Assembly (NCBI RefSeq): GCF_001017435.1
Contig: NZ_CP011371.1
Span: forward strand, 6,138,001 to 6,202,000
Direction of reading: 5' to 3'
Source: Caldimonas brevitalea
GTDB taxonomy: Bacteria > Pseudomonadota > Gammaproteobacteria > Burkholderiales > Burkholderiaceae_C
DNA: 64,000 bases
Part shown: positions 9,404 through 61,319 of the stretch, piece after piece
Layout: the number at the start of each line of letters is the position of its first letter
How positions within the stretch are numbered: the first letter of the stretch is position 1
Position numbers and translations under genes: made by a program
Notes under the pieces: model-generated
Databases searched by the model: none
Told to the model about the DNA's origin: nothing
What the model saw: the letters and a program-made list of their open reading frames with translations, nothing else

Positions 9404-10169
9404 GTGTAACGATCCCTATTCATTTCGTATTGTTGATCTGGGCCGCCGCGCACGATTCTCACGTCGTGTTCGGCGCACCAGCGTGGGAATTGTTCTCTCT
9501 GCAACGGCGGGCTTGCTGTAATCGGAGGTGACTGTCACCTCGGCGCCACGCGATCGCGAGTGCGGGGACGGCTCACGTAGGTGTCCACGGTCAGCTGCCG
9601 TCGGCGCCTACGCAGCGGCGGCAGCGGCGAAGGGGTGTGCCGCACGGCTGTCACGCGCCCCGCTCGCCGAAGCCGGCCCGTCGTGCCCACAAGGGAGCCG
9701 AGCGCGCGCGTCGGCTCCTACAACACCGCTCCTACGTGCCCAGCGGGACCACGGCGCAGCGCAGGCCGGCAGCGCATATCGATCGCCAGCAGACGCTCGG
9801 CGGCCGCCCTCGCTACCTCTGCATCTTTGATGCGGAGGTCATCCTCCGAAGGAGCGGTGCCATTGAGGTGACGGCGACAGGGAGACAACATGACACGTTC
9901 CATTGGAGGCGGCGTGCTGCAGCCGCTTGCGCTGATGCGTGAGCGTCTAGACACGGCGCCTTGACCGGCTTGCTTTTACCCACAATTTCGCCTCTTCTAT
10001 GAGCGGTTGGCGCCGAGCCGATGGGATTTCACTGTGAGTACGGTGCTGTGTCGCAACTTGGCAGTACGGGACGGCCCGAGGCTGCCATGGCGAACTTGCG
10101 CAGTACAAGGACGGGCCGAGCGATCGAGGCGGGCCAGAACAGTTGGATTGACGAGGAACTGGACGAGAG
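9404..10169. other. Intergenic stretch of about 770 bases, no supported gene
   Basis: It lies between a PEP-CTERM gene and the IS30 element. Frames here are short, Arg/Pro-rich and without recognisable motifs. A minus-strand piece near 9790-9870 (reading DDLRIKDAEVARAAAERLLA) looks helical and may be a fragment of a lost gene, but cannot be identified. Confidence 0.35.
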
Positions 10170-11297
10170 GGCGGTTTCAAAGCCCAAGTGCAACAACAGG
10201 ATTAATGTCGATGTTGCGCTGGAAGCAATCCTCGAAGAAGACTTCGGCGGGGCTGCGGAAGCCCAGCGTCTTGCGTGGGCGGGTGTTCAGGCTCCAGGCA
10301 ATGGCATCGAGTTGTCGTTGGCTGGAGCCGCTCAGGTCCGTGCCTTTGGGCAGGTACTGCCGCAGCAATCCATTGGTGTTCTCGCAGATGCCTCTCTGCC
10401 ACGGGCTGTGGGGGTCGGCAAAGTAGATCTTCAGCCCGGTGCTCTCGGCCAGCTTCTTGTGCAGCGCCATCTCCTTGCCTTGGTCGTAGGTCAAGGTTTT
10501 GCGCAGCTCGGGGTCCAGTGGCGAGAACGCCAGCTCGAAGCCGTGGAGTGCGTCCAGCGCGGTGGCGCCCTCAATCTTCACCAGCATCACGAACAGCGTC
10601 TTGCGGCACACCAGGGTGCCTACCGCGGACTTGTTCCTGGCGCCCTTGATCAGGTCCCCTTCCCAGTGGCCGGGCAGCAACCGCTCATCGGCCTCGGGCG
10701 GGCGCACGTGGATGCTCACGATGTCGGTGAGCGAGCCGCGCCGGTCCTGCCCGCGAGCACGCGGCTTGCGCGCGCCCTTGCCCTGGCGCAGAAGTGCCAC
10801 CAGCTCCTTGCGAAGCGAGCCGCGCGGCATCGCGTAAATCGCCTGGTAAATCGTCTCGTGGGAAGCGTGCAAGTCAGGTCGTCCTGGGTATTCTTGCTGC
10901 AGTCTGCCGGCGATTTGCTGCGGCGACCAACATTGCTGGAGCAGCCCGCGCACCTCGCGCCAAAGCGCGCTGCCACGGTGGAGCTTGCGCGCCGGGCGAC
11001 TTAGTCGGCGCACCCGCCGCGCTCGCGCACCAGCGTGCACCGCGTCATAGCCCGGGCGCAGCCGCGGACGCCCCAGCAGGGCACGACCGTTTGCTGGCTG
11101 GTGCCCGTTGCGGCGCAGTTCACGACTAATTGTGCTCGGTGCGCGCTGCAACGCTCTGGCGATGGCCCGCGCACTGCTGCCTTGCTGGGTCATCGCCATG
11201 ATGACCCCACGCTCCTCGGGACCCAACTGTTGATAAGTTCTTGTCATGCAAACACTCTGCGGGGGAGGGAGTGTTGCACTTCGCTTTTGAAACCGCC
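10170..11297 (-). mobile_element. IS30-family insertion sequence
   Basis: Bounded by imperfect terminal inverted repeats of 25 bases: 10170-10194 (GGCGGTTTCAAAGCCCAAG...) and the complement of 11273-11297 (GGCGGTTTCAAAAGCGAAG...). One transposase gene fills the interior. The flanks (ACGAGAG left, TTCAGAA right) show no target duplication, so the flanks may have been rearranged after insertion. Confidence 0.85.
10177..11247 (-). CDS. IS30 family transposase
   Basis: A 356-residue DDE transposase. The N-terminal helix-turn-helix region (YQQLGPEERGVIMAMTQQG, then RALQRAPSTISRELRRN) is typical of IS30. The catalytic core shows GHWEGDLIKGA, TYDQGKEM and a C-terminal QRGICENTNGLLRQYLP with the Glu. 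The length is normal and the frame is intact, so the element may still be active. The start codon lies 25 bases inside the right inverted repeat. Confidence 0.92.
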   Translation of the reverse strand: MTRTYQQLGPEERGVIMAMTQQGSSARAIARALQRAPSTISRELRRNGHQPANGRALLGRPRLRPGYDAVHAGARARRVRRLSRPARKLHRGSALWREVRGLLQQCWSPQQIAGRLQQEYPGRPDLHASHETIYQAIYAMPRGSLRKELVALLRQGKGARKPRARGQDRRGSLTDIVSIHVRPPEADERLLPGHWEGDLIKGARNKSAVGTLVCRKTLFVMLVKIEGATALDALHGFELAFSPLDPELRKTLTYDQGKEMALHKKLAESTGLKIYFADPHSPWQRGICENTNGLLRQYLPKGTDLSGSSQRQLDAIAWSLNTRPRKTLGFRSPAEVFFEDCFQRNIDINPVVALGL

Positions 11298-11500
11298 TTC
11301 AGAAAAGTGCGACAACCGTGTGTCACCCCTACCATATCGTTCAATGCTGAACTGTTGTTCAAGTGTCTCGGGTCGAGGAACGCTTATTGTCTCGCTTGGA
11401 TGAGGGCAGCGGACACATGCGCTCTCGGCCCGAGTGCTGCTTCCGCGAGTCCTGCGCCGCTCAGCCGGTCGGTCCCTCACCGGCTCACTGTCTCCCTCTC

Positions 11501-12229
11501 ATGAACGAAACAACGATTCCGGTCCTTCCCTGCGTGTCGCCCGAAGCGGTCCTCGACTTCTATCACGCGCTCGGCTTCGAGACGACCTATCGAATGACCC
11601 AGCCTTACCTGTACATGGTGTTCAAGTTGGGCGGCTTCCAGCTTCACTTCGGCAGGGCACCGAAGGGCCTGGATCCGCACGAGGAACACTCGGGCTGCTG
11701 CCTGGTCATCGTGGACGCAGTGGCGTCCTACCATCGATCGTTCAGCGGCGCGCTTCGCGCAAGGTACGGGAAGGTGCCCTCGCGCGGCCTGCCCCGCATC
11801 ACCCGATTTCGCACGGGACAGAGCCGCTTCACGGTGATCGACCCGTCGGGCAACAGCCTCATCTTCATCCAGCGGGACGAACCTGCTCACCTCGACTACG
11901 GCGGCTCCGACACCCTTACGGGTCTCGCCAAGGCCATCGACAACGCGCGCATCCTTTGCAACTTCAGAAACGACGACCGGGCGGCCGCGAAAGTCCTCGA
12001 TACGGCACTCCGAAAGCACTGGGGCGAGGCCTCCGTACAGGACAAGGTGCGGGCACTTGCAGCGCGTGTGGACATCGCGATCGCGATGGAAGACGTGCAG
12101 CAGTGCCGGCAGCTACACGGTCGACTGCAAGAAATAGATCTCCTTGACGAAGTTCGCGAGAAACTGCGCGCCGAACTGGAGATCCTCGACGGGCTGACTC
12201 AGTGGCTGTCAAAGGCGGCCGCCGGATGA
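11501..12229 (+). CDS. Glyoxalase/bleomycin-resistance (VOC) superfamily protein with C-terminal helical extension
   Basis: A 242-residue protein. Residues 1-130 have the VOC pattern: TTIPVLPCVSPEAVLDFYHA, LGFETTYR, FKLGGFQLHFGR, and FTVIDPSGNSLIFIQRDEP near the end of the domain. VOC proteins are metal-dependent dioxygenases, isomerases or drug-binding resistance proteins. Residues 140-242 form a mostly helical extension (KAIDNARILCNF, DKVRALAARVDIAIAMED, LLDEVREKLRAELEILDGL) not normal for minimal VOC proteins. The ATG at 11501 gives the correct domain start; no strong ribosome binding site is visible. Exact substrate unknown. Confidence 0.75.
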   Translation: MNETTIPVLPCVSPEAVLDFYHALGFETTYRMTQPYLYMVFKLGGFQLHFGRAPKGLDPHEEHSGCCLVIVDAVASYHRSFSGALRARYGKVPSRGLPRITRFRTGQSRFTVIDPSGNSLIFIQRDEPAHLDYGGSDTLTGLAKAIDNARILCNFRNDDRAAAKVLDTALRKHWGEASVQDKVRALAARVDIAIAMEDVQQCRQLHGRLQEIDLLDEVREKLRAELEILDGLTQWLSKAAAG

Positions 12230-12239
12230 TCGTCATTTC

Positions 12240-12720
12240 CACAGGCTTTCGCCGGTGCCGCGCCGACGGCCACCAGCGTCAGGGCCACGACGACGTTAAT
12301 GGCAGGTCTGGCGCCATCCATCCCCGCCGCCGCATCAGCACCGAAGCGGCGTAGCCGAAGGCATACAGCGTGACCAACAGCCCCACCACGGCGCCCCACA
12401 GCCGGTCCTCGGTCCAGCCGTGCTGGGGGACCCGCTGTCCCAATCCCCAGTCGCCGAGCAGCGCGAGCGCTGGCATGGCCAACCAGGCAAGCGAGAGCGA
12501 CTGCGCCATCCAGTCCGGGAACGAGCGGGTCTCGCGGCCGTCCCGGAAGGCGGCGTTGACAAAGGTGATGGTCAGTGCCGCGAACCAGAACAGATAGAAA
12601 GCCGCGTGTCGGGTGGCGAACAGCGGTTCAACGCCGGTGAAGGCCAGCGCCACCAGCCAGGCTGCGGCCCACAGCAGCACCCAGAGCACACAGGCAAGCG
12701 CTGCGCACACCGGCACCAGC
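12240..12720 (-). pseudogene. DUF4153 membrane protein fragment
   Basis: The minus strand encodes an internal piece of a DUF4153-type polytopic membrane protein: CAALACVLWVLLWAAAWLVA, then ATRHAAFYLFWFAAL, ending TEDRLWGAVVGLLVTLYAFG. The reading then shifts frame (INVVVALTLVAVGAA). Neither the N-terminal part nor the true C-terminus is present, so this is a remnant. Confidence 0.6.
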
Positions 12721-12833
12721 AGCGAATTGCGCCAGCAACCCTCTCAGGCGCCGCCCAGGCCAGCGTCCTGGAAAACGCTCTCGTCCAATTCCTGGTCGAC
12801 CTAACTGTTCTGCCTCGCCTCGTCCGCGAGACG

Positions 12834-12913
12834 GGGTCAAGGCCTTAAATCTGAAGTGGGGCACGGTGCAATGTTCGAGGACGGGGCGGGACTTCAAATT
12901 TAAGGCCTGACCC
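12834..12913. repeat. REPIN-like inverted repeat element, copy 1
   Basis: The left arm GGGTCAAGGCCTTAAATCTG and the right arm ending AAATTTAAGGCCTGACCC are inverted copies separated by about 33 bases (GGGCACGGTGCAATGTTCG...). The same 80-base unit, with the same centre, recurs at 16695-16773. Single arms occur at 20798, 26471, 29961 and 34211. This element lies directly upstream of a PEP-CTERM gene whose 5' end seems to be cut at the repeat. Confidence 0.8.
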
Positions 12914-52076: not shown

Positions 52077-54329
52077 ATGAATCAGAACCACGAGGGACAC
52101 CCCGGGCGTCGCACCCGGCCCGCCACCACCTTGCTGCTGGCGCTGCTGGGCGGCCTCGGCCTGGCCAGCCTTGCCAGCTGCGGCGGCGGGGGCGGCAGCA
52201 ACGAACGCGACAGCGGCCCCGAGCAGACCTACCTGAGCGTCGAAGCACAAGACGCCGACGGCGACACCTTGCGCTATCAATGGCGCGTGACCGGCGGCAC
52301 GGTGGACAACCGCAACGCCAAAGAGACGGTCTGGACGCTGCCCGACGGCCCGGGGCTGCATTTCGCCTACGTCAGCGTGTCGGACGGCAAGGGCGGCCAT
52401 GTCGAGCAGCAATACGCCGTGGCCAGCGACGCGCTCGACACCCCCGCCCCCACCCGCGCCCCGGTGCAACACGTGGCCCCGGCGGTGGCGGAGGTCGACG
52501 GCGGCACAGTGCGGCTCACCTTCCAGTCGGCCGACGCGACGCTGTTCACGCCGCCGCAAGGGGGTGCCGCGGCACGCCGTGCCGTCTACCTGCCCGACGT
52601 GCAGGTGGAGGTGCTCGACGCGTCCAACACCCAGGTGTATGCCGGTGCCAGCGACATCGGTGGCGAGCTGGGCCTGCCGCGCCTGGCGCAAGGCCAGACC
52701 TACCGCATCCAGTGCACCAGCACGCCGGGCACCGCCTTGCGCCGCTGTGGCGAGGTGACGCCCGGCGCCGGGTCGACCGCGCTCACGCTCGACCCCGCTG
52801 TGCCCGACAGCCGCAACCTGCGCCTTTACGGCCACGTGGCGCTGGCCGACGGCAGCGTGTGCGGCGTGCAGAACGAGTTCTTCGGCGTGCAATCGGCCGC
52901 CACCGTGCAGCTGCTGCAGCTCGACGGTGCGGCGCTGACGCCGCCCTTGCGCGTCAACCGCTATGGCGACTACGCGCTCGACGCGGCGGTGCCGCTCAAC
53001 GGCAAGCTGCAGCTGCGCGTGGCCTGCGAGGGTGTGGTGCGCACACTCGACGTGCCGGCGCCCCGCAACGGCGGCTACCTCGCCAGCCAGCCGGTGGAGC
53101 TGTCGTATGCCGTGCCCAACACGCGGCCGCGCATCCGCAAGATGGTGGCCAACGGGCCCGACGGCAACGTGCGCGGCCAGATGATCGAGCCCGAGTCTGG
53201 CGCGTCGTCGAACGGCCTGCCGGGCAGCGAGCAGTTCCTGACCTACAAGGGCAAGGACACCAAGCTGAGCAGCTGCATGTACTACCGCTCGATTGGCGCG
53301 GTGGGCGGCTGCGACGCGCAGGGCAATTTGCAACAACCCATCTCGCTCGACGACTGGAAGCGCCAGCACAAGTTCAAGCCCTATGCCGCCGGCAACACCG
53401 AGGTCGAGGCCGTCTACATCAACAAGATGGACCTGAACCTGGTGCGCCGCATGGTGGCCACCGACGTCGCGGCCGACCACAAGGCCTTCTACGTCTGCAA
53501 CCACCCGGGGCCGGAGGGCCGCACGCAACGCGAGGTGGAGGACGTGATCGCCACCGCGCTGGACGACGAGAAGCAGGTGGCCTGCGTCGCGATGGAGTGG
53601 TCGGTGACGCCGGGCACAAATGGCGATCGGCCGTTCACCAAGTTCCTGACCTTCGGGCCGGACGGCGCGCTGATGGCCTCGGTCAATCTCGACGGCCGCG
53701 GTGAAAAATACCTGCCGGGCGCCTGCGTGGCCTGCCATGGCGGCACGCAGTACAGCGGGCGCTTCCCCGAGAAGGGCAACCCCTCGCCCAACCTCGGCTC
53801 CAACTTCCTGCCCTTCGACACCGCCAACTATCTGTTCTCGACCAAGGGCGGGCTGACCGAGGCGGCGCAGAGCGACGCGCTGCACCGGCTCAATCAACTG
53901 GTAAAAGCCACCTCCCCGGCGCCGGCCACCGTCGCGCTGATTGACCACTGGTATGCCGGCGGCGGCACCACGCTGAACAAGGCGTATGTGCCCGACGTGT
54001 GGCTGCAGGCCGATGCGCAGCCGGCCACGGCTGGCGCGGCGACCTTCTACCGTGAGGTGATCGCCACCTCGTGCCGCACCTGCCACACGGCGATGCGCGA
54101 ACCCTTCGACTGGGACTCGCGGCTGCCGCGCCCGGTCGGCGCGCCGCCGCTGCGCCATGTCTGCGGCGGCTCGGCCGACCTCGCGCTCAACGCCTCGATG
54201 CCCAATGCGCTGATCTCGCACGACCGCCTGCTGGACCGGGCGCGCAGCGACGCCAACCTGGCCGCGCTGATGCGCACCTTCCTCGGCTGCGAGGCACCGG
54301 CGGCCGACCCCGTTTATCCGAAACGCTGA
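52077..54329 (+). CDS. Dihaem cytochrome-type lipoprotein with N-terminal PKD/Ig-like domain
   Basis: A 750-residue lipoprotein: LLLALLGGLGLASLASCGGG gives the signal and lipid Cys. Residues 40-110 (QDADGDTLRYQWRVTGGTVD, HFAYVSVSDGKGGHVEQQYA) are a PKD/Ig-like domain. A carboxypeptidase-regulatory-like beta domain follows (residues 130-360). The C-terminal half carries two CXXCH haem motifs, CVACH at 550 and CRTCH at 666, with further Cys residues. It presumably transfers electrons in the periplasm or on the outer membrane. It starts a block of five genes in the same direction: OmpA lipoprotein, haem-containing repeat protein, intramembrane protease and porin. Confidence 0.75.
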   Translation: MNQNHEGHPGRRTRPATTLLLALLGGLGLASLASCGGGGGSNERDSGPEQTYLSVEAQDADGDTLRYQWRVTGGTVDNRNAKETVWTLPDGPGLHFAYVSVSDGKGGHVEQQYAVASDALDTPAPTRAPVQHVAPAVAEVDGGTVRLTFQSADATLFTPPQGGAAARRAVYLPDVQVEVLDASNTQVYAGASDIGGELGLPRLAQGQTYRIQCTSTPGTALRRCGEVTPGAGSTALTLDPAVPDSRNLRLYGHVALADGSVCGVQNEFFGVQSAATVQLLQLDGAALTPPLRVNRYGDYALDAAVPLNGKLQLRVACEGVVRTLDVPAPRNGGYLASQPVELSYAVPNTRPRIRKMVANGPDGNVRGQMIEPESGASSNGLPGSEQFLTYKGKDTKLSSCMYYRSIGAVGGCDAQGNLQQPISLDDWKRQHKFKPYAAGNTEVEAVYINKMDLNLVRRMVATDVAADHKAFYVCNHPGPEGRTQREVEDVIATALDDEKQVACVAMEWSVTPGTNGDRPFTKFLTFGPDGALMASVNLDGRGEKYLPGACVACHGGTQYSGRFPEKGNPSPNLGSNFLPFDTANYLFSTKGGLTEAAQSDALHRLNQLVKATSPAPATVALIDHWYAGGGTTLNKAYVPDVWLQADAQPATAGAATFYREVIATSCRTCHTAMREPFDWDSRLPRPVGAPPLRHVCGGSADLALNASMPNALISHDRLLDRARSDANLAALMRTFLGCEAPAADPVYPKR

Positions 54330-54394
54330 CACCTCACCGATCGACTGCCCCTCGCGCCGCCCAGCGTGCGGCGTCGGGCTGCAAGGAGTGTTGA

Positions 54395-55729
54395 ATGAAG
54401 ATCCGCCTGCCCAGACGTTTTTGCCTGGTCTCCCTCGCCGTGTCGCTGGCGCTGCTCGGCGCCTGCAGCAACGTCGGCCCGTCGGCCCCTGCCGTGACGG
54501 CGCCGCGCGCGGCCACGGCCCCGGCCCCCGTCGCCGCGGCCACGGCCAGCACCACCACCCCCACCAGCGTGCCACCGCTGCCGGAGGTCGCGTTGCCCGC
54601 CGACGCCCAACAACTGCCCGACGACAAGCTGCAGCCGGTCCGCTTCGAAGACGCGGTGGCGCGTGCGGGCGAGCAGCTGTTCCGTGAAGCCAAGCTGCGA
54701 CTGGGCGGTGAGCAACGCACGCTGGTGATCGACCCGTTGATCGACGCCAACACCGGCGCGCAGACCACCAGCACGGTGCGCATGGGCGAGCAACTCGAGA
54801 CCCTCGCCAAGTCGGGCAAGCCGGGCTGGCAGGTGCAGCCGCTGACGCGCAAGGCGCTGGCCACGCAGCCGCTGCTGCTGATCGGCACGGTGACGCCGAT
54901 CAACACGCGCCGCAGCATCGACACGCAGCCCGACGCCTTCCGCATCTGGGTCACGTTGATCGACCTGCGCACCAAGCAGGTCATCGCCAAGCGGCTCGAC
55001 CGCGCCAGCGTCGACAGCGTGAACGCCGAACCGGTTTCCTACTTCCGCGACAGCCCGACCTGGCACAAGGACAAGACGGTGCAGGGCTACATCAACTCGT
55101 GCCAGGTCAACACGCGCGTGGGTGACCTGGCCGACCCGGAGTACCTGGCCCGCCTGCCGGCCGCCGCAGTGCTGAACGAGGCCACGCTGGCCTACGGCCA
55201 GGGCGACATCCCGACCGCCAACGGTCTCTACAAGGAAGCCCGCACGCTGGCCGAACCGGGCGACCTGCGGGTGCTCAACGGCCTCTACCTGACCAGCTGG
55301 AAGCTGGGCCAGCGTGAAGCCGCCAAGGAGGCCTTCAACAGCCTGGTGGCGTCGGGCCTGGAGTCGAAGCGGCTGCCGATCAAGCTGCTGTTCCAGCCGG
55401 GCCGCACCAGCTTCATCGAGGTGGGCGACCTGATGCAGCAATACGAGGTGTGGCTGAGTTCGCTGTCGAGCACGGCCGGCGCGGTGCCGGCCTGCATCAA
55501 CGTGGTGGGGCACACCAGCCGCACCGGCAGCGCACGTGTCAACGAAGAGCTGTCGCGCCGGCGGGCGGAGCAGGTGGTGCGGCTGCTGGAACAGCGCAAC
55601 CGCAGCCTCGGAGCCCGGCTGAGCGCCAAGGGCGTGGGCTCGCGCGAGGCGCTGGTGGGCCTGGGCACCGACGATCTGCGCGATGCGCTCGACCGGCGGG
55701 TCGAGTTCCGCGTGGTCGATTGCGTGTGA
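54395..55729 (+). CDS. OmpA-family lipoprotein
   Basis: A 444-residue protein starting 66 bases after the previous stop, with AAGGAG before the ATG. Lipoprotein signal: RRFCLVSLAVSLALLGACSN. The C-terminal 110 residues are an OmpA-like peptidoglycan-binding domain (CINVVGHTSRTGSARVNEEL, RRRAEQVVRLLEQ, LDRRVEFRVVDCV). Residues 70-200 contain a FlgO/CsgG-like region (AGEQLFREAKLRLGGEQRTL, VRMGEQLETLAKSGKPGWQV). Residues 230-330 have TPR-like helices (AVLNEATLAYGQGDIPTANG). It probably links an outer-membrane complex to the cell wall. Confidence 0.82.
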   Translation: MKIRLPRRFCLVSLAVSLALLGACSNVGPSAPAVTAPRAATAPAPVAAATASTTTPTSVPPLPEVALPADAQQLPDDKLQPVRFEDAVARAGEQLFREAKLRLGGEQRTLVIDPLIDANTGAQTTSTVRMGEQLETLAKSGKPGWQVQPLTRKALATQPLLLIGTVTPINTRRSIDTQPDAFRIWVTLIDLRTKQVIAKRLDRASVDSVNAEPVSYFRDSPTWHKDKTVQGYINSCQVNTRVGDLADPEYLARLPAAAVLNEATLAYGQGDIPTANGLYKEARTLAEPGDLRVLNGLYLTSWKLGQREAAKEAFNSLVASGLESKRLPIKLLFQPGRTSFIEVGDLMQQYEVWLSSLSSTAGAVPACINVVGHTSRTGSARVNEELSRRRAEQVVRLLEQRNRSLGARLSAKGVGSREALVGLGTDDLRDALDRRVEFRVVDCV

Positions 55730-55847
55730 GCAGAGGTCGGGGCGGGCCTGGTCGGGACTAAAAAGCCGCGGACCATCACGAGAGTCGAACCGACCCACAC
55801 AAACCCATAAACAAACGGGCGCAACGATGAAGGCGGGAGGGGTGCAC

Positions 55848-58403
55848 ATGGGTGCCGAAGCATCAACGGTGGCGACAGGCGTCACCAGGGGCGCCCTGTG
55901 GCGCAAGGTCCGCGGTATGCGCGCCGGGCTGGCTGCGGCGGTGGCGCTCGCGGCTCAGGCGCTGGCGCCGCAGACGGCCCTCGCGCAGGCGGTGACGCTG
56001 CCGGACACGGCCTACAGGGCCAAGTGCATAGCGTGCCACGAGTATCCGGTCCGCGTGCTGAGCACGGGGGCGAGCCCGCTCGGCTACGGCAAGATCATCG
56101 GCAACGCCAAGATCGACGGCACGGTCGCGCAGATGCGCACCGCGATGCCGGCCGCCTACGCCTACAACCTGAGCCCGGAAGCGATCAGCGACGCGGAAGT
56201 GGCGCAGGTACAGTCGTTCCTGCGCATGGTGCGCGACCTGGTGGTGATCCCATCGGTGCCGGCCTTCCCGACCACCGTGGCCGGCACGACCAGCGGAGCC
56301 CCAGGCACTATCACGATCGCCAATGCGCGGGCCGCCGCGGTGCCCTACAGCTATAGCGTCACCGGCGCGAATGCCGGCGACTTCTCGGTGTCGGCCTCGT
56401 GCACCGGGGGCTCGGTGCCGGCCGACAACACCGACACGCCTTGCACGCTGACCGTGCAGTTCTCACCCAGCGCGGCGGGCGTCAGCGGCACGCGCAGTGC
56501 CACCCTGGTGCTGAGCTTCACCGGCACCAGCGGCGACCCGACACCGCCGACGCGCAACATTCCGCTGCAAGGCGACGCGCAGGTGCTGGCACCGCAGTTC
56601 AGCATCTCACCCACCGGCCTGACCTTCTCGGCGGTGGCGGGGGCCAGCACCACCGGCACCGCCACCATCACCAACGGCGGCAATGCCAACCTGGTGCTCG
56701 GCACGCTGAGTTTCAGCGGCGCGCAGGCCAGCGACTACTCGTTCGGCGCCGGCAACCAATGTGTGGCATCGGGTGTGTTGACGCCGGGCAGCAACTGCCA
56801 ACTGGTGGTGCAGTTCGCCCCCCCGGCGGCCGGTGCCCGCAACGCCAGCCTCAGCATCACCCACAACGCCAGCGGCAGCCCGCAGGTGCTGACGCTGGCG
56901 GGCACCGCGACGCCGGCGCCGCAGCCCGCGATCGAACTGAGCGTGGCGTCGGTCGCGTTCGGCGACACCCAGCTGGGCAGCACGGCACAACGCTCGTTCA
57001 CGGTGCGCAACAGCGGCCAGGCACCGCTCGGCTTCACCAGCTTCACGCTCGGTGGTGCGGCGGCCGGCGACTACACGCGCGGCGGCACCTGCACGACGGG
57101 CACGCCGCTGGCGGTCGGGGCCACCTGCAGCGTGACCCTCAGCTTCACGCCGGGCGCGCTCGGCTCGCGCTCCGCCACGTTGTCGATCGCCTCGAACGCG
57201 AGCAACGGCACCGCCAGCGTGCCGCTGAGCGGGTCGGGCGTGCCGGTGCCGGCTCCGGCCGTCAGCCTGTCGGCCGGCAGCCTCGACTTCGGCTCGCAGA
57301 CCGTGGGGGGGATCTACCCGGCACGCAGCGTGACGCTGACCAACAGCGGCAACCAACCACTGGTGTTGACGTCGCTGGCGGCCAGCGGGGCCGGCTTTGC
57401 GCTGACCACCGGGTCGCCCTGCCCGGCGACACTGGCCGCGGGCGCGAGCTGCACCGTGTCGGTCGGCTTCACGCCCACCGCGGCCGGCACCGATTACGCC
57501 GGCGCCATCGACATCGTCAGCAACGCGCCGGGGTCGCCCCATCGTGTGGCGCTGGCCGGGCGCGGCACGGTGGACGCAGTGCCGGCGCTGGTGTGGTCGC
57601 CCGCGGTGGCCCGCATGAGTTTCGGCGACGTGTCGGTGGGCACGGTGTCGGCGGTGCAGTCCGCCACGCTGACCAACCAGGGCCCGGGCGGCGCGGTGCT
57701 GCACATCGCCAATGCGGTGGGTGTCGGCGCGTCGAGCTATTCGGTGACGCTGGCCGGTTGCACCGTCGGCCAAGTGATCTTCCAGGGCCAGAGCTGCCAG
57801 GTGAACGTGCAGTTCACACCCGACGGTGCCGGCGAGAAGACCGCGACGGTGCAGGTGGCCAGCTCGGGCAGCCACCCGCCGACCTTGACGCTGCAAGGCA
57901 CCGGCCTGGCGGCACCGGGCGCCGGCCTGGCCGTGTCGGCCACCGCAGTGAGTTTCAGCGGCACACAACAGGGCAGCCGGTCGCTACCGTCGGAGCTGAC
58001 GCTGAGCAGCCGCGGCACCGGCAGCCTGCGGGTGACCGGGCTCGAGGTGCAAGGCCCCTACAACGTGCAGAACAAGTCGTGCCCCACCCTGCCCTTCACG
58101 CTGCCGCCCGGCAGCGAATGCACGCTGAGCATCACCTTCGAACCCACCGGCACCGGCGCGGCCGGCGGTGTGCTGAGCATCACCAGCGACGCCAGTGCGA
58201 CACCCCAACAGGTGACGTTGAGCGGCGAAGGCACGCCGGCCGCCGACACCTCGGGCGGCGGTTGCTCGCTGGTCGAGGGGGACACGCTGGTCGACCCGAC
58301 CCTGTGGGCACTGCTGCTGGCAGCCGGCGGCGTGCTGGTTTGGCGCCGGCGCGAAGGAGCGGCCGACGCCCGCGCGTCGCGGCACGGCGGAGCGCGGACG
58401 TGA
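55848..58403 (+). CDS. Choice-of-anchor-D repeat protein with haem motif and JDVT-CTERM-like sorting tail
   Basis: An 851-residue exported protein. The ATG at 55848 has GGGAGGGG upstream; 55827 and 55917 are also in frame. The signal peptide is around RAGLAAAVALAAQALAPQTA. Then comes a small haem domain with CIACHEYP. About six Ig-like choice-of-anchor-D repeats follow (each with patterns like SFTVRNSGQAPLGFTSFTL and CSVTLSFTPGALGSRSATL). The tail is SGGGCSLVEGDTLVDPTLWA, then LLLAAGGVLVWRRREG: a Cys-containing signature, a short (V)DPT motif, one hydrophobic helix and Arg cluster. This fits the JDVT-CTERM class. The next gene, overlapping by GTGA, encodes the probable processing protease. 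Confidence 0.8.
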   Translation: MGAEASTVATGVTRGALWRKVRGMRAGLAAAVALAAQALAPQTALAQAVTLPDTAYRAKCIACHEYPVRVLSTGASPLGYGKIIGNAKIDGTVAQMRTAMPAAYAYNLSPEAISDAEVAQVQSFLRMVRDLVVIPSVPAFPTTVAGTTSGAPGTITIANARAAAVPYSYSVTGANAGDFSVSASCTGGSVPADNTDTPCTLTVQFSPSAAGVSGTRSATLVLSFTGTSGDPTPPTRNIPLQGDAQVLAPQFSISPTGLTFSAVAGASTTGTATITNGGNANLVLGTLSFSGAQASDYSFGAGNQCVASGVLTPGSNCQLVVQFAPPAAGARNASLSITHNASGSPQVLTLAGTATPAPQPAIELSVASVAFGDTQLGSTAQRSFTVRNSGQAPLGFTSFTLGGAAAGDYTRGGTCTTGTPLAVGATCSVTLSFTPGALGSRSATLSIASNASNGTASVPLSGSGVPVPAPAVSLSAGSLDFGSQTVGGIYPARSVTLTNSGNQPLVLTSLAASGAGFALTTGSPCPATLAAGASCTVSVGFTPTAAGTDYAGAIDIVSNAPGSPHRVALAGRGTVDAVPALVWSPAVARMSFGDVSVGTVSAVQSATLTNQGPGGAVLHIANAVGVGASSYSVTLAGCTVGQVIFQGQSCQVNVQFTPDGAGEKTATVQVASSGSHPPTLTLQGTGLAAPGAGLAVSATAVSFSGTQQGSRSLPSELTLSSRGTGSLRVTGLEVQGPYNVQNKSCPTLPFTLPPGSECTLSITFEPTGTGAAGGVLSITSDASATPQQVTLSGEGTPAADTSGGGCSLVEGDTLVDPTLWALLLAAGGVLVWRRREGAADARASRHGGART

Positions 58404-58900
58404 TCGCACGCAGCCACGACTGGAGCGCTCCGTATGGCAGGGCCGCGGCTGCGCTGCTGCGTGCCAAGCCGCACGTGATGCAAGGCCGGCCGGGCCCGCG
58501 GCCGGCGTGGCCGGCCGCTGCTGCTGCGGCGGCGGTGTTGCTGGTCGCGATGACAGCCGCCTGGTCGACCGGGCAGCCGCCCTTGCGCGCGGCGTTGCTG
58601 GTCGCACTCGTGCCGCTGGCCGAGGAGATCGTGTTCCGCCGCGGTTTGCAGGAGACGCTGCTGCGCCGGGGAGCGTCGCCGATGGGGGCCAACCTGCTCA
58701 CGGTGTTCGCCTTCGGCGCCGCCCATGCGGCGGTGCGCGGCGACCTCGCCGGTGCTGCCGTGGCGTTGCCGGCCTTGTGGATCGGCGCGCTCTATGGCCG
58801 CACCCGCCGCGTGGCCCCCTGCGCCGTGCTGCATGGCGGCCTCAACGCGCTGTGGCTGGCCGCGCCCGCCCTGCTCGCCCACGTCCCGGCGCTCGGCTGA
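58400..58900 (+). CDS. mrtJ: CPBP-family intramembrane glutamic protease, probable JDVT-CTERM protease (MrtJ-like)
   Basis: A 166-residue protein from a GTG that overlaps the stop of the JDVT-CTERM protein. Hydrophobic segments AWPAAAAAAAVLLVAMTAAW and LRAALLVALVPLAEEI lead to the CPBP motifs EEIVFRRGLQETLLRRG (catalytic Glu pair), TVFAFGAAHAAVRG (His) and CAVLHGGLNALWLAAPALLA. CPBP proteases of the MrtJ type are encoded beside JDVT-CTERM substrates. It is shorter than usual CPBP proteins (about 200-300), as expected for MrtJ. The gene symbol is based on family and context, not a search. Confidence 0.75.
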   Translation: MIARSHDWSAPYGRAAAALLRAKPHVMQGRPGPRPAWPAAAAAAAVLLVAMTAAWSTGQPPLRAALLVALVPLAEEIVFRRGLQETLLRRGASPMGANLLTVFAFGAAHAAVRGDLAGAAVALPALWIGALYGRTRRVAPCAVLHGGLNALWLAAPALLAHVPALG

Positions 58901-58944
58901 TGACCATGGGCATCCCACATCTTTCCATCCGGAGGGCCGTCTTC

Positions 58945-59958
58945 GTGCCTCATTTGTCCCGATCCGTTTGCGCCGCGTTGTGCGCATTGAGCCTGGCAGC
59001 CTTCAGCGGCGGCGCGCAGGCCCAGACCGATGTGTCGTTCCACGGTGTGCTCGATTTCTCTTACGGGCGCTTCGAACCCAGCGGCACGATCCGCGAGCAC
59101 CGCTACAACAGCAATTCGATGACGGCCACCCATGTGGGCATGACCGCGAAGCACGGCTTCGACGGCGGCTGGACGCCGGGGGTGACGCTCGAGACCTTTG
59201 TGCGGTTGGAGAAGCTGCGCACCGGCCGCACCAACGACGACCCCTTCTTCTCGCGCAATGCCTACGCCTTTCTGGGCAGCGACTACGGCACGCTGCGCCT
59301 GGGCCGCCAGTTGACGCCGCTGTTCGACAGCACCACCCGCTTCAACGCGCTGGCCAACTCGGTGTCGTTCTCGCCGGCGGTGCGGCATCTGTTCGGCAGC
59401 GGCGCGCTGGAAGGTGCACAAGGCGACTTCTATTGGAACCGCGCGGTCGGCTATGTGTCGCCCAACCTCGACGGCCTGGTGGCCAACGTGATGTATGCGC
59501 GCGGCCCGTCCGAGCTGAAGGGCGATTACAGCGGCGGCAGCCTGGTGTACTCGCGCGGGCTGTGGGCGGTGTCGCTGGCGGCGCAGGACGTGCGGGTGCG
59601 TGACGACATCGACGATGGCATCGATGAACAGGTGTGGCAGTTGGGGGCGGCCTACAACTTCGGCTTCGCCAAGCTGTTCGGCCTGTACACGCAGACCCGC
59701 GACCGCGAACTGGAAGTGCGCAGCAAGATCGCCTCGACCGGCTTGTCGGTGCCGGTCGGGCCGGGCAGCGTGCTGGCGCAGGTGGCCTACACCACCGCCG
59801 AGGGGCCGGCCGTCGATCGCAAGCACACGACCACCAGCGCGGCTTACCTGTACGCCTATTCGAGCCTGACCGATTTGTATGTGGTGGGCATGGACGACCG
59901 CGTGCGAGGGCAGACCAAGGGGCAGTCGGTGGCGTTGGGGGTGCGGACGCGGTTTTGA
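58945..59958 (+). CDS. Gram-negative porin
   Basis: A 337-residue protein. A GTG at 58945 with GGAGGG nine bases upstream gives a canonical signal peptide (PHLSRSVCAALCALSLAAFS, then GGAQA); an ATG at 58900 overlapping the protease stop would add 15 residues. The mature protein begins QTDVSFHGVLDFSYGRFEPS and shows beta-barrel strands (SDYGTLRLGRQLTPLFDSTT, GDFYWNRAVGYVSPNLDGLV, WQLGAAYNFGFAKLFGLYTQ), ending VALGVRTRF with terminal Phe for BAM recognition. General diffusion porin type of beta-proteobacteria. Confidence 0.88.
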   Translation: MPHLSRSVCAALCALSLAAFSGGAQAQTDVSFHGVLDFSYGRFEPSGTIREHRYNSNSMTATHVGMTAKHGFDGGWTPGVTLETFVRLEKLRTGRTNDDPFFSRNAYAFLGSDYGTLRLGRQLTPLFDSTTRFNALANSVSFSPAVRHLFGSGALEGAQGDFYWNRAVGYVSPNLDGLVANVMYARGPSELKGDYSGGSLVYSRGLWAVSLAAQDVRVRDDIDDGIDEQVWQLGAAYNFGFAKLFGLYTQTRDRELEVRSKIASTGLSVPVGPGSVLAQVAYTTAEGPAVDRKHTTTSAAYLYAYSSLTDLYVVGMDDRVRGQTKGQSVALGVRTRF

Positions 59959-60093
59959 GCGGCACGCCGTCCGGCGAACCGGGCAGCGTCGAGCCGCTCC
60001 TGCCGGTCGGCCGTTGACGGTTGTGGCGGGTCCCCGGAGGCAGTCATGCTGCAGGCGGTGCGCGAGCGTCGATTCCGTTCCATTTTCAGACAC

Positions 60094-60122
60094 TTCCGAG
60101 CAATTACGTACGTACGTATAAT
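60094..60122 (+). promoter_or_regulatory. Promoter with palindromic spacer for the ATPase gene
   Basis: TATAAT (60117-60122) is a perfect -10; TTCCGA (60094-60099) is a weak -35 at 17 bases. The spacer contains the self-complementary TACGTACGTACGTA, a possible operator. Confidence 0.6.
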
Positions 60123-60146
60123 TCGTCCGTAATCGTGGAGGATCCG

Positions 60147-61319
60147 ATGGACCCGGCTTTGCCCTTCGTCTACCGGCGCACTGAGCTCGCCAAGGTCTAC
60201 TGTGCCGCACTCGAGGGACGCGGCGTGCTCGACTTCACGTCCGGCCTCTTCCTGGCCGCGCCCCGACGCACCGGCAAGTCGACGTTTCTGCGGGAAGACC
60301 TGATCCCCGAGATGCGCGGCCTTGGCTGGGAACCGGTGTACGTCGATCTCTGGTCTGATCGCGCCCGCGACCCGGCGGAATTGATCACGGCCGCCGTGCG
60401 CGGGGCGCTCACGCGCCATGACGGGCCGGTGCTGAAAGCTGCGAAACGTGTCGGCCTCGACCGCCTGAACGTCATGGGCACTCTCTCGCTGGATCTTGCC
60501 AAGGTCGGCCAACCCGGCGGAGCCACCTTGGCCGACGCGTTGGAGCGCCTGCACCAGCAATCCGGCAAGCCTATCGCGCTGCTGATCGACGAGGCCCAGC
60601 ACGCCTTGTCGACGGAGGCGGGCACGCAGACCATGTTCGCCCTCAAGGCGGCACGTGATCGCCTCAACCAGGGCACCGGAACCCGCGGCCTGCATCTGGT
60701 GATGACAGGCTCCAACCGCGACAAACTGGCCCATCTGGTGCTGCGCAAGAGCGAGCCGTTCTACGGCGCCGGCATCACGCGCTTTCCCTTGCTCGACCGC
60801 GGCTTCGTGGAAGCCTACGCGCAGTGGTTGAACCAGCAGTTCGCTGCGGGCATGCAGTTCGAGGTGGACGCCTTGGAGCGCGCGTTCGAGCTGGTGGGGC
60901 GCCGCCCCGAGATGCTCAAGCAGGTGGTCGGCGAAAGCGTGTCAGAGTTCGGCGGGGCCGCCGCGCTCTCGGCACAGGTCGCCTCCAACGCAAAGGAACT
61001 GCAGCGGCGTGCATGGCGCGATTTCGAGTCGGTGTACAACGGACTGCCGGACACGCAGAAAGCCGTCTTGGACGGTGTCGCCCGTTTGTCGCCGGACTAC
61101 GAACCCTTTTCCGAGGACGCGCACCAGGCCTACCAAGCCGTGATGGGCAAGCGGCTGGCCGCGTCGACCGTGCAGGCCGCCCTCGACGCGCTGCGCGAAA
61201 AAGAGCTGTTGTGGCGTGCCGGGCGAGGCGCGTATGCCTTCGAGGACGACGGGCTGCGGGCTTGGTATCTGGAACAGCACCGGTCGCCTCCGCACATCGA
61301 AGGGCCCAGCGAAGGCTGA
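60147..61319 (+). CDS. P-loop ATPase (AAA/ArchATPase-like)
   Basis: A 390-residue protein with GGAGGA before the ATG. Walker A is APRRTGKSTFL (about 38-46), Walker B is PIALLIDEAQHAL. A sensor-like LVMTGSNRDKL and the C-terminal helical part (RRPEMLKQVVGESVSEFG, ASTVQAALDALREKELLWRA) resemble STAND/ORC-type ATPases with a winged-helix end (PDYEPFSEDAHQAYQAVMGK). The N-terminus (FVYRRTELAKVYCAALEGRG) is typical of the COG1672 type. Substrate and partners unknown; it has its own promoter. Confidence 0.75.
   Translation: MDPALPFVYRRTELAKVYCAALEGRGVLDFTSGLFLAAPRRTGKSTFLREDLIPEMRGLGWEPVYVDLWSDRARDPAELITAAVRGALTRHDGPVLKAAKRVGLDRLNVMGTLSLDLAKVGQPGGATLADALERLHQQSGKPIALLIDEAQHALSTEAGTQTMFALKAARDRLNQGTGTRGLHLVMTGSNRDKLAHLVLRKSEPFYGAGITRFPLLDRGFVEAYAQWLNQQFAAGMQFEVDALERAFELVGRRPEMLKQVVGESVSEFGGAAALSAQVASNAKELQRRAWRDFESVYNGLPDTQKAVLDGVARLSPDYEPFSEDAHQAYQAVMGKRLAASTVQAALDALREKELLWRAGRGAYAFEDDGLRAWYLEQHRSPPHIEGPSEG

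Follow-up and report, generated by a model that had tools for sequence, protein, structure and literature searches.

A JDVT-CTERM protein with a haem motif and its MrtJ protease in a conserved cytochrome/OmpA/porin cassette

The JDVT-CTERM/MrtJ system (NF033191/NF033192) is described in the available sections of PMC11980579 as a two-gene neighbourhood, in which the protease MrtJ accompanies one JDVT protein. In the related MYXO-CTERM system, as the same sections present it, MrtX of Myxococcus cleaves and sorts a Cys-tagged protein, M. xanthus has 35 substrates and the system ends at the cell surface. Here we analyse a 64,000-nucleotide stretch of the Caldimonas brevitalea genome (contig NZ_CP011371.1, positions 6,138,001 to 6,202,000; hereafter the window), where a JDVT-CTERM/MrtJ pair belongs to a run of five genes. 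These lie head to tail on the plus strand and encode a predicted dihaem lipoprotein (cytLP), an OmpA-like predicted lipoprotein, the JDVT-CTERM protein, MrtJ and a porin. Unlike the two-gene neighbourhood, the pair in the window sits in a conserved five-gene run and its cargo carries a haem motif. Our analysis confirms that the JDVT/MrtJ pair and the haem motifs lie within a conserved cytochrome/OmpA/porin cassette.

Porin-cytochrome conduits of the MtrCAB type combine multihaem cytochromes with a large dedicated barrel. As in such conduits, cytochrome genes in the window stand beside a gene for an outer-membrane barrel; unlike them, the window has three haem motifs, two in one protein and one in another, together with a 352-residue Porin_4 protein, which places it outside the MtrCAB type. 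Flavinylation gene clusters offer another comparison. The available parts of Meheust et al. 2021 (PMC8238504) report that DUF3570 is a substrate of ApbE and describe gene clusters that include DsbD, thioredoxin-like and DUF4266 proteins; the term CPBP is absent from the main text of that paper. Like those clusters, the window run would be an extracytosolic redox cassette, and relatives of MrtJ and JDVT adjoin such genes in 12 of the 36 loci considered below; unlike them, neither the window nor the other window-type loci were found to contain DsbD, DUF3570, DUF4266 or ApbE genes.

The JDVT-CTERM/MrtJ pair and its conserved context

A sequence-only reading of the window had proposed a JDVT-CTERM tail and an MrtJ-like CPBP protease, encoded by genes that overlap by GTGA, and profile hidden Markov models bear out both assignments. 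The tail scores 47.6 bits on NF033191 (cut-off 27) and the protease 90.6 bits on NF033192 (cut-off 75), and the overlap lies at 58400-58403. Genome-wide, these NCBIfam models find one JDVT-CTERM protein and one MrtJ above cut-off in the single contig of 6,476,147 bases. The pair therefore resembles the JDVT-CTERM/MrtJ system in that both members exceed the curated cut-offs, adjoin, overlap and occur once each per genome.

The JDVT protein gene (55827..58403, plus strand; the start codon could also be 55848 or 55917) encodes a signal peptide recognised by eye and a CxxCH motif close to the start of the mature protein, as well as six choice-of-anchor-D stretches and, at the C-terminus, the tail. 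The haem motif that the sequence-only reading had reported in the substrate is CIACH at 56025..56039, and a nearby AMP (56142..56150) may supply a methionine ligand. The tail (58254..58352) consists of a cysteine within GGGCS (the GGGC signature, Cys at 58263-58265), a hydrophobic stretch with DPTLW and a basic end, WRRR. MrtJ (58400..58900, plus strand) is a predicted glutamic-type intramembrane protease, in which the motifs EExxxR and HxxxN are present as EEIVFR (58622..58639) and HGGLN (58832..58846), together with FGAAH (58712..58726); it stays under the cut-offs of the other myxosortase models. The invariant-Cys tail and a CPBP protease with EExxxR and HxxxN are shared with MYXO-CTERM/MrtX, as far as the available text of PMC11980579 describes it. 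The differences are that the window tail reaches 16 bits on the MYXO-CTERM model TIGR03901, under its cut-off of 20 (the tails of three named relatives score 28, 20.5 and 19.6), and that there is one substrate here as opposed to 35 in M. xanthus. Sequence searches of the PDB with MrtJ and with the JDVT protein returned no match.

Conservation was assessed in genomes selected on the presence of cytLP. A cytLP search of 399 genomes of the family gave 15 matches at E 1e-10, of which 10 are full length, including the window's own; the other five are one partial match on a 4.2 kb contig (G375) and four distant ones. In a collection of genome contigs, a four-sequence profile gave 16 loci, 14 of them close and two distant (L111 and L113). 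Five of the 14 close loci (L101, L102, L103, L108 and L109) duplicate genomes already counted, and the scan of this collection relied on two short peptide patterns, by which carriers may be missed. The full-length set comprises 19 genomes, and 18 of these can be tested for gene order, the contig of L106 ending after the OmpA-like gene.

In all 18 testable genomes cytLP is followed by the OmpA-like, JDVT and porin genes in the same order and on the same strand, and this order holds down to about 50% cytLP identity. The five-gene order highlighted by the sequence-only reading stands in full for these four genes, and less strictly for MrtJ, which lies between the JDVT and porin genes in 15 of the 18, behind the porin in one (G338, where it is still next in the same gene run) and is locally absent from two. 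All 18 JDVT proteins have a tail over cut-off and keep the tail cysteine, and MrtJ exceeds its cut-off in 15 of the 16 cassettes that have it (the exception, L105, scores 73.1 against 75). In 15 of the 18 the JDVT stop codon shares bases with an in-frame start of the gene that follows. At three loci the following gene is not MrtJ, and there it is the porin start that overlaps the JDVT stop. In the window, MrtJ and porin also overlap (TGATG at 58898-58902). These observations confirm that the cassette context is conserved and not accidental. Neither result that would have refuted the sequence-only reading was obtained: the tail fits its model and the gene order is kept.

Members of Massilia, Variovorax, Ramlibacter, Roseateles, Piscinibacter, Caldimonas and Zoogloea are among the named carriers. 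Within the 19 genomes the closest pair share 97% cytLP identity, the next pair 81%. The named records closest to the window's cytLP include C. mangrovi (64% cytLP identity, the same as for Piscinibacter defluvii). The distribution is sporadic: full-length cytLP occurs in 10 of the 399 family genomes, cytLP was not matched in the four other same-genus genomes listed, and a search of 399 genomes of the order had the window's copy as its sole full-length match. Distances between the cassette proteins are correlated (r 0.50-0.85 for five pairs tested, each value reached in 0 of 5000 permutations).

Local loss of MrtJ was expected to entail loss of the tail, which is not what the two cassettes lacking it show, their tails scoring 39.3 bits (G192) and 41.6 bits (G329). 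The only MrtJ-like genes of these genomes lie elsewhere, at loci L136 and L137, and are below cut-off (63.3 bits in G192, 68.7 bits in G329); the one in G192 adjoins another JDVT protein. Processing of these JDVT tails in trans is possible. Among the MrtJ frames of the cassettes, those of L091 and L092 (G315 and G373) measure just 105 and 113 residues from stop to stop while keeping EExxWR and HxxxN, and are possibly near the minimal size for this protease.

The dihaem lipoprotein, the OmpA-like protein and the porin

The first gene, cytLP (52077..54329, plus strand), had been taken for a dihaem lipoprotein, and its sequence agrees with that prediction. It has a lipobox, LASC, whose cysteine is residue 35, and two CxxCH motifs, CVACH (53724..53738) and CRTCH (54072..54086). 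Lipobox-like motifs are present in 18 of the 19 cassette cytLP proteins, L091 being the exception. Both cysteine pairs and histidines are invariant across 45 aligned sequences (C666, C669 and H670 in motif 2), as is M708 in MPNAL (54198..54212), a candidate methionine ligand, and exactly two CxxCH motifs occur in 120/120 of the cytLP homologues listed (the best 120 of 415). In Pfam and NCBIfam, no family scores above cut-off against the protein. Run against PDB sequences, the cytLP profile gave one weak and uninformative match, to cytochrome c551 (E 0.39), and cytLP was not matched among plasmids.

Distant relatives of cytLP share with it mainly the dihaem region, approximately residues 423-690 (L082-L085, L139-L149, L111 and L113). 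Their hosts are Burkholderiales, one Terriglobia metagenome-assembled genome (MAG) and one Rhodobacteraceae MAG. At the position aligned with M459 they mostly have Met, with His in L111 and L139 (judged by eye), and either residue would suit a haem ligand. No other cassette gene was seen alongside these distant relatives, most of the loci spanning just 3-4 kb; those long enough to be informative are L094-L097 (15-19.5 kb), L111 (22 kb) and L113 (8.8 kb).

The OmpA-like protein (54395..55729, plus strand; lipobox LGAC) carries a C-terminal OmpA domain (PF00691, 36.4 bits against a gathering cut-off of 27.2), and a lipobox-like motif is found in 14 of the 19 OmpA-like proteins, where the negatives are weak since frames were read from stop to stop. 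The sequence-only reading had assigned this protein to the cell wall. The domain itself is real, as the match attests, yet the window protein has GHTS in place of the usual GHTD. In OmpA of A. baumannii, according to the available text of PMC6572160, the aspartate D271 binds diaminopimelate together with an arginine partner. With equivalence assigned by motif spacing from the residues given in that text, the D271 position is Ser in 18/18 cassettes and Thr in L106, which is cut by the contig end, whereas the arginine partner is kept in 19/19. A cell-wall role for the OmpA-like protein is doubtful because its OmpA domain lacks an aspartate known to contact peptidoglycan.

The porin (58900..59958, plus strand) is a Porin_4 protein of 352 residues whose nearest solved structure is Omp32, and it is a cassette-specific relative of the Omp32-type porins. 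It is 52-64% identical to the porins of the other cassettes; the three other porin matches in the host genome show 27-32% identity over partial length.

Haem and non-haem cargo of JDVT-CTERM tails

The wider use of the tag was examined in 36 further MrtJ loci from a 299-genome sample of the family, comprising all 29 others over cut-off and the seven best below it. Three are window-type cassettes, 12 contain a second type of cassette, 14 have only other JDVT proteins and seven are unclassifiable (L036, L038, L039, L042, L043, L067 and L070). The second cassette (L045, L046, L047, L049, L050, L051, L053, which equals L150, L058, L059, L060, which equals L151, L062 and L065) combines thioredoxin-like, DUF4266, DUF3570 and ApbE genes with a JDVT protein of the choice-of-anchor-D kind. 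DsbD lies within the stretch retrieved at 10 of the 12 loci. The Pfam names were verified on L046 for four of the genes and on L065 for DsbD.

Haem motifs divide these cargo proteins into two classes. They are present in 18/18 window-type JDVT proteins, all as strict CxxCH, and in 14/14 of those from the second cassette, where 10 of the 14 have strict CxxCH; the pattern used was C, two to four residues, CH, widened after four second-cassette proteins proved to have no CxxCH. Among other JDVT proteins, the motif occurs in 0/17 (0/16, and it is likewise absent from one more in L151); of these, L040 and L068 have weak tails, at 12.2 and 14.8 bits, on a custom profile that was built from 18 cassette tails and is biased towards them. 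The proposition that all JDVT proteins bear haem is accordingly rejected.

Further arrangements were seen among the second-cassette loci. At two of them MrtJ lies 6.6 and 9.7 kb from the gene for the JDVT protein with the haem motif. L046 and L059 have tandem JDVT proteins with haem motifs beside a single MrtJ, and one MrtJ may serve more than one substrate. In L151, a single frame of 927 residues (10081-12864, minus strand) unites a thioredoxin-like protein with a haem domain, Ig-like repeats, a JDVT-like tail and another hydrophobic stretch, a natural fusion of a JDVT with a TlpA-like protein.

It is possible, although we would sooner expect otherwise, that JDVT/MrtJ is a delivery device with two kinds of cargo. 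One kind would be a haem on an Ig-like stalk that plugs into envelope cassettes based either on haem (cytLP, OmpA-like protein and porin) or on flavin and thiols (thioredoxin-like, DUF4266, DUF3570 and ApbE), and the protease would thereby place a surface electron-transfer terminus in cells that have no multihaem conduit. The open-licence literature searched contains no account of the five-gene redox cassette or of the split between haem and non-haem JDVT cargo; that literature excludes the founding JDVT/MrtJ paper (Haft 2024), where prior mention is possible. Within this scope the protein families are known and their conserved redox context is new.

Possible role in envelope electron transfer

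Our favoured but tentative reading, to which we assign a little less than an even chance, is that the cassette forms a dedicated outer-envelope redox module in which a stalked haem, trimmed by MrtJ, exchanges electrons with the dihaem lipoprotein. The JDVT protein would be exported by Sec, its Ig-like repeats forming a stalk that bears a single haem close to the N-terminus. Anchored by its C-terminal helix, it would remain in the inner membrane until MrtJ, the product of the overlapping gene, cleaves the tail in the vicinity of the invariant cysteine. That cysteine would probably be lipidated before the cut, as proposed for MYXO-CTERM, and the lipid-anchored protein could then move to the outer membrane or the cell surface, perhaps via type II secretion. 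The lipoprotein route would take the dihaem and OmpA-like lipoproteins to the outer membrane, where they would encounter the cassette porin, and the stalked haem and the dihaem protein could exchange electrons. For the substrate, the most likely outcome would be that MrtJ removes the tail and that the haem stalk is left at the outer membrane, held by its lipid.

Several of these steps draw on comparison. Tail cleavage by MrtJ is suggested by the precedent of MrtX, which in Myxococcus cuts and sorts a protein with a Cys tag (in the available sections of PMC11980579), and a role in electron transfer by the haem motifs on two of the proteins and the redox nature of the second cassette. GspD exceeds its cut-off in 10/10 of the cassette genomes searched, so the export route proposed for MYXO-CTERM would be available. 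What the sequences show directly are the family matches, the motifs and the gene order with its conservation; from these we infer haem attachment, cleavage, lipidation, location, complex formation and electron transfer with its direction.

A number of points weigh against a redox module of this kind. The only cytochrome family in Pfam to match, PF13442, scores 14.6 and 15.4 bits in the pair of cytLP and the JDVT protein, below its gathering cut-off of 27 in both, so the haem assignment rests on motif and conservation; moreover, the JDVT haem domains are so divergent that their methionine ligand falls in no single alignment column. For electron transfer over a long distance, three haem motifs is a small number, and the substituted aspartate of the OmpA domain also counts here. 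GspD does not discriminate, the cassette-free genomes searched for it being the 14 controls. Two cassettes of the same genus (G192 and G329; L090 and L089) do without a local MrtJ, the MrtJ-like genes found elsewhere in them being below cut-off, and the distance correlations partly reflect species history, the genomes being related.

An attached oxidoreductase is an unlikely alternative that still deserves weight. Here the dihaem lipoprotein would be an enzyme with a small-molecule substrate, electrons would leave or enter it through the JDVT haem, and the porin would admit substrate or product. The strict conservation of the dihaem domain, its occurrence in distant relatives that have no other cassette genes where their flanks are long enough, and the cassette-specific porin are all consistent with such an enzyme, but cytLP matches no known enzyme family over cut-off and has no informative PDB match.

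Somewhat less probable still is a haem stalk that spans the periplasm, with the JDVT protein staying at the inner membrane after cleavage, or without it, and its Ig-like stalk carrying the haem to the outer-membrane lipoproteins. Six Ig-like stretches do separate the haem from the membrane anchor, and the partners are predicted lipoproteins and a porin. A dedicated MrtJ, however, makes little sense for a tail that is only a permanent anchor, and in the related MYXO-CTERM system the endpoint is the surface (available sections of PMC11980579). A chance landing of the MrtJ/JDVT pair between unrelated envelope genes is very improbable and largely refuted: such pairs do occur in many other contexts and the cassette is sporadic (10/399 family genomes, none in the four other same-genus genomes listed), but gene order is kept in 18/18 down to about 50% cytLP identity, and the displaced MrtJ of G338 remains next in the gene run.

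The outer-envelope redox module would give the little-studied JDVT/MrtJ system a suggested job, the placing of haem proteins in envelope redox modules, and the window provides a compact test case, having one substrate, one protease and a stainable cofactor. If the proposal is true, C-terminal sorting by an intramembrane protease would join the Gram-negative ways of putting a cytochrome on the outer face. Directly downstream of the porin, and outside the cassette count, an open frame on the plus strand (60021-61319) resembles ATP-binding (AAA-type) proteins by eye.

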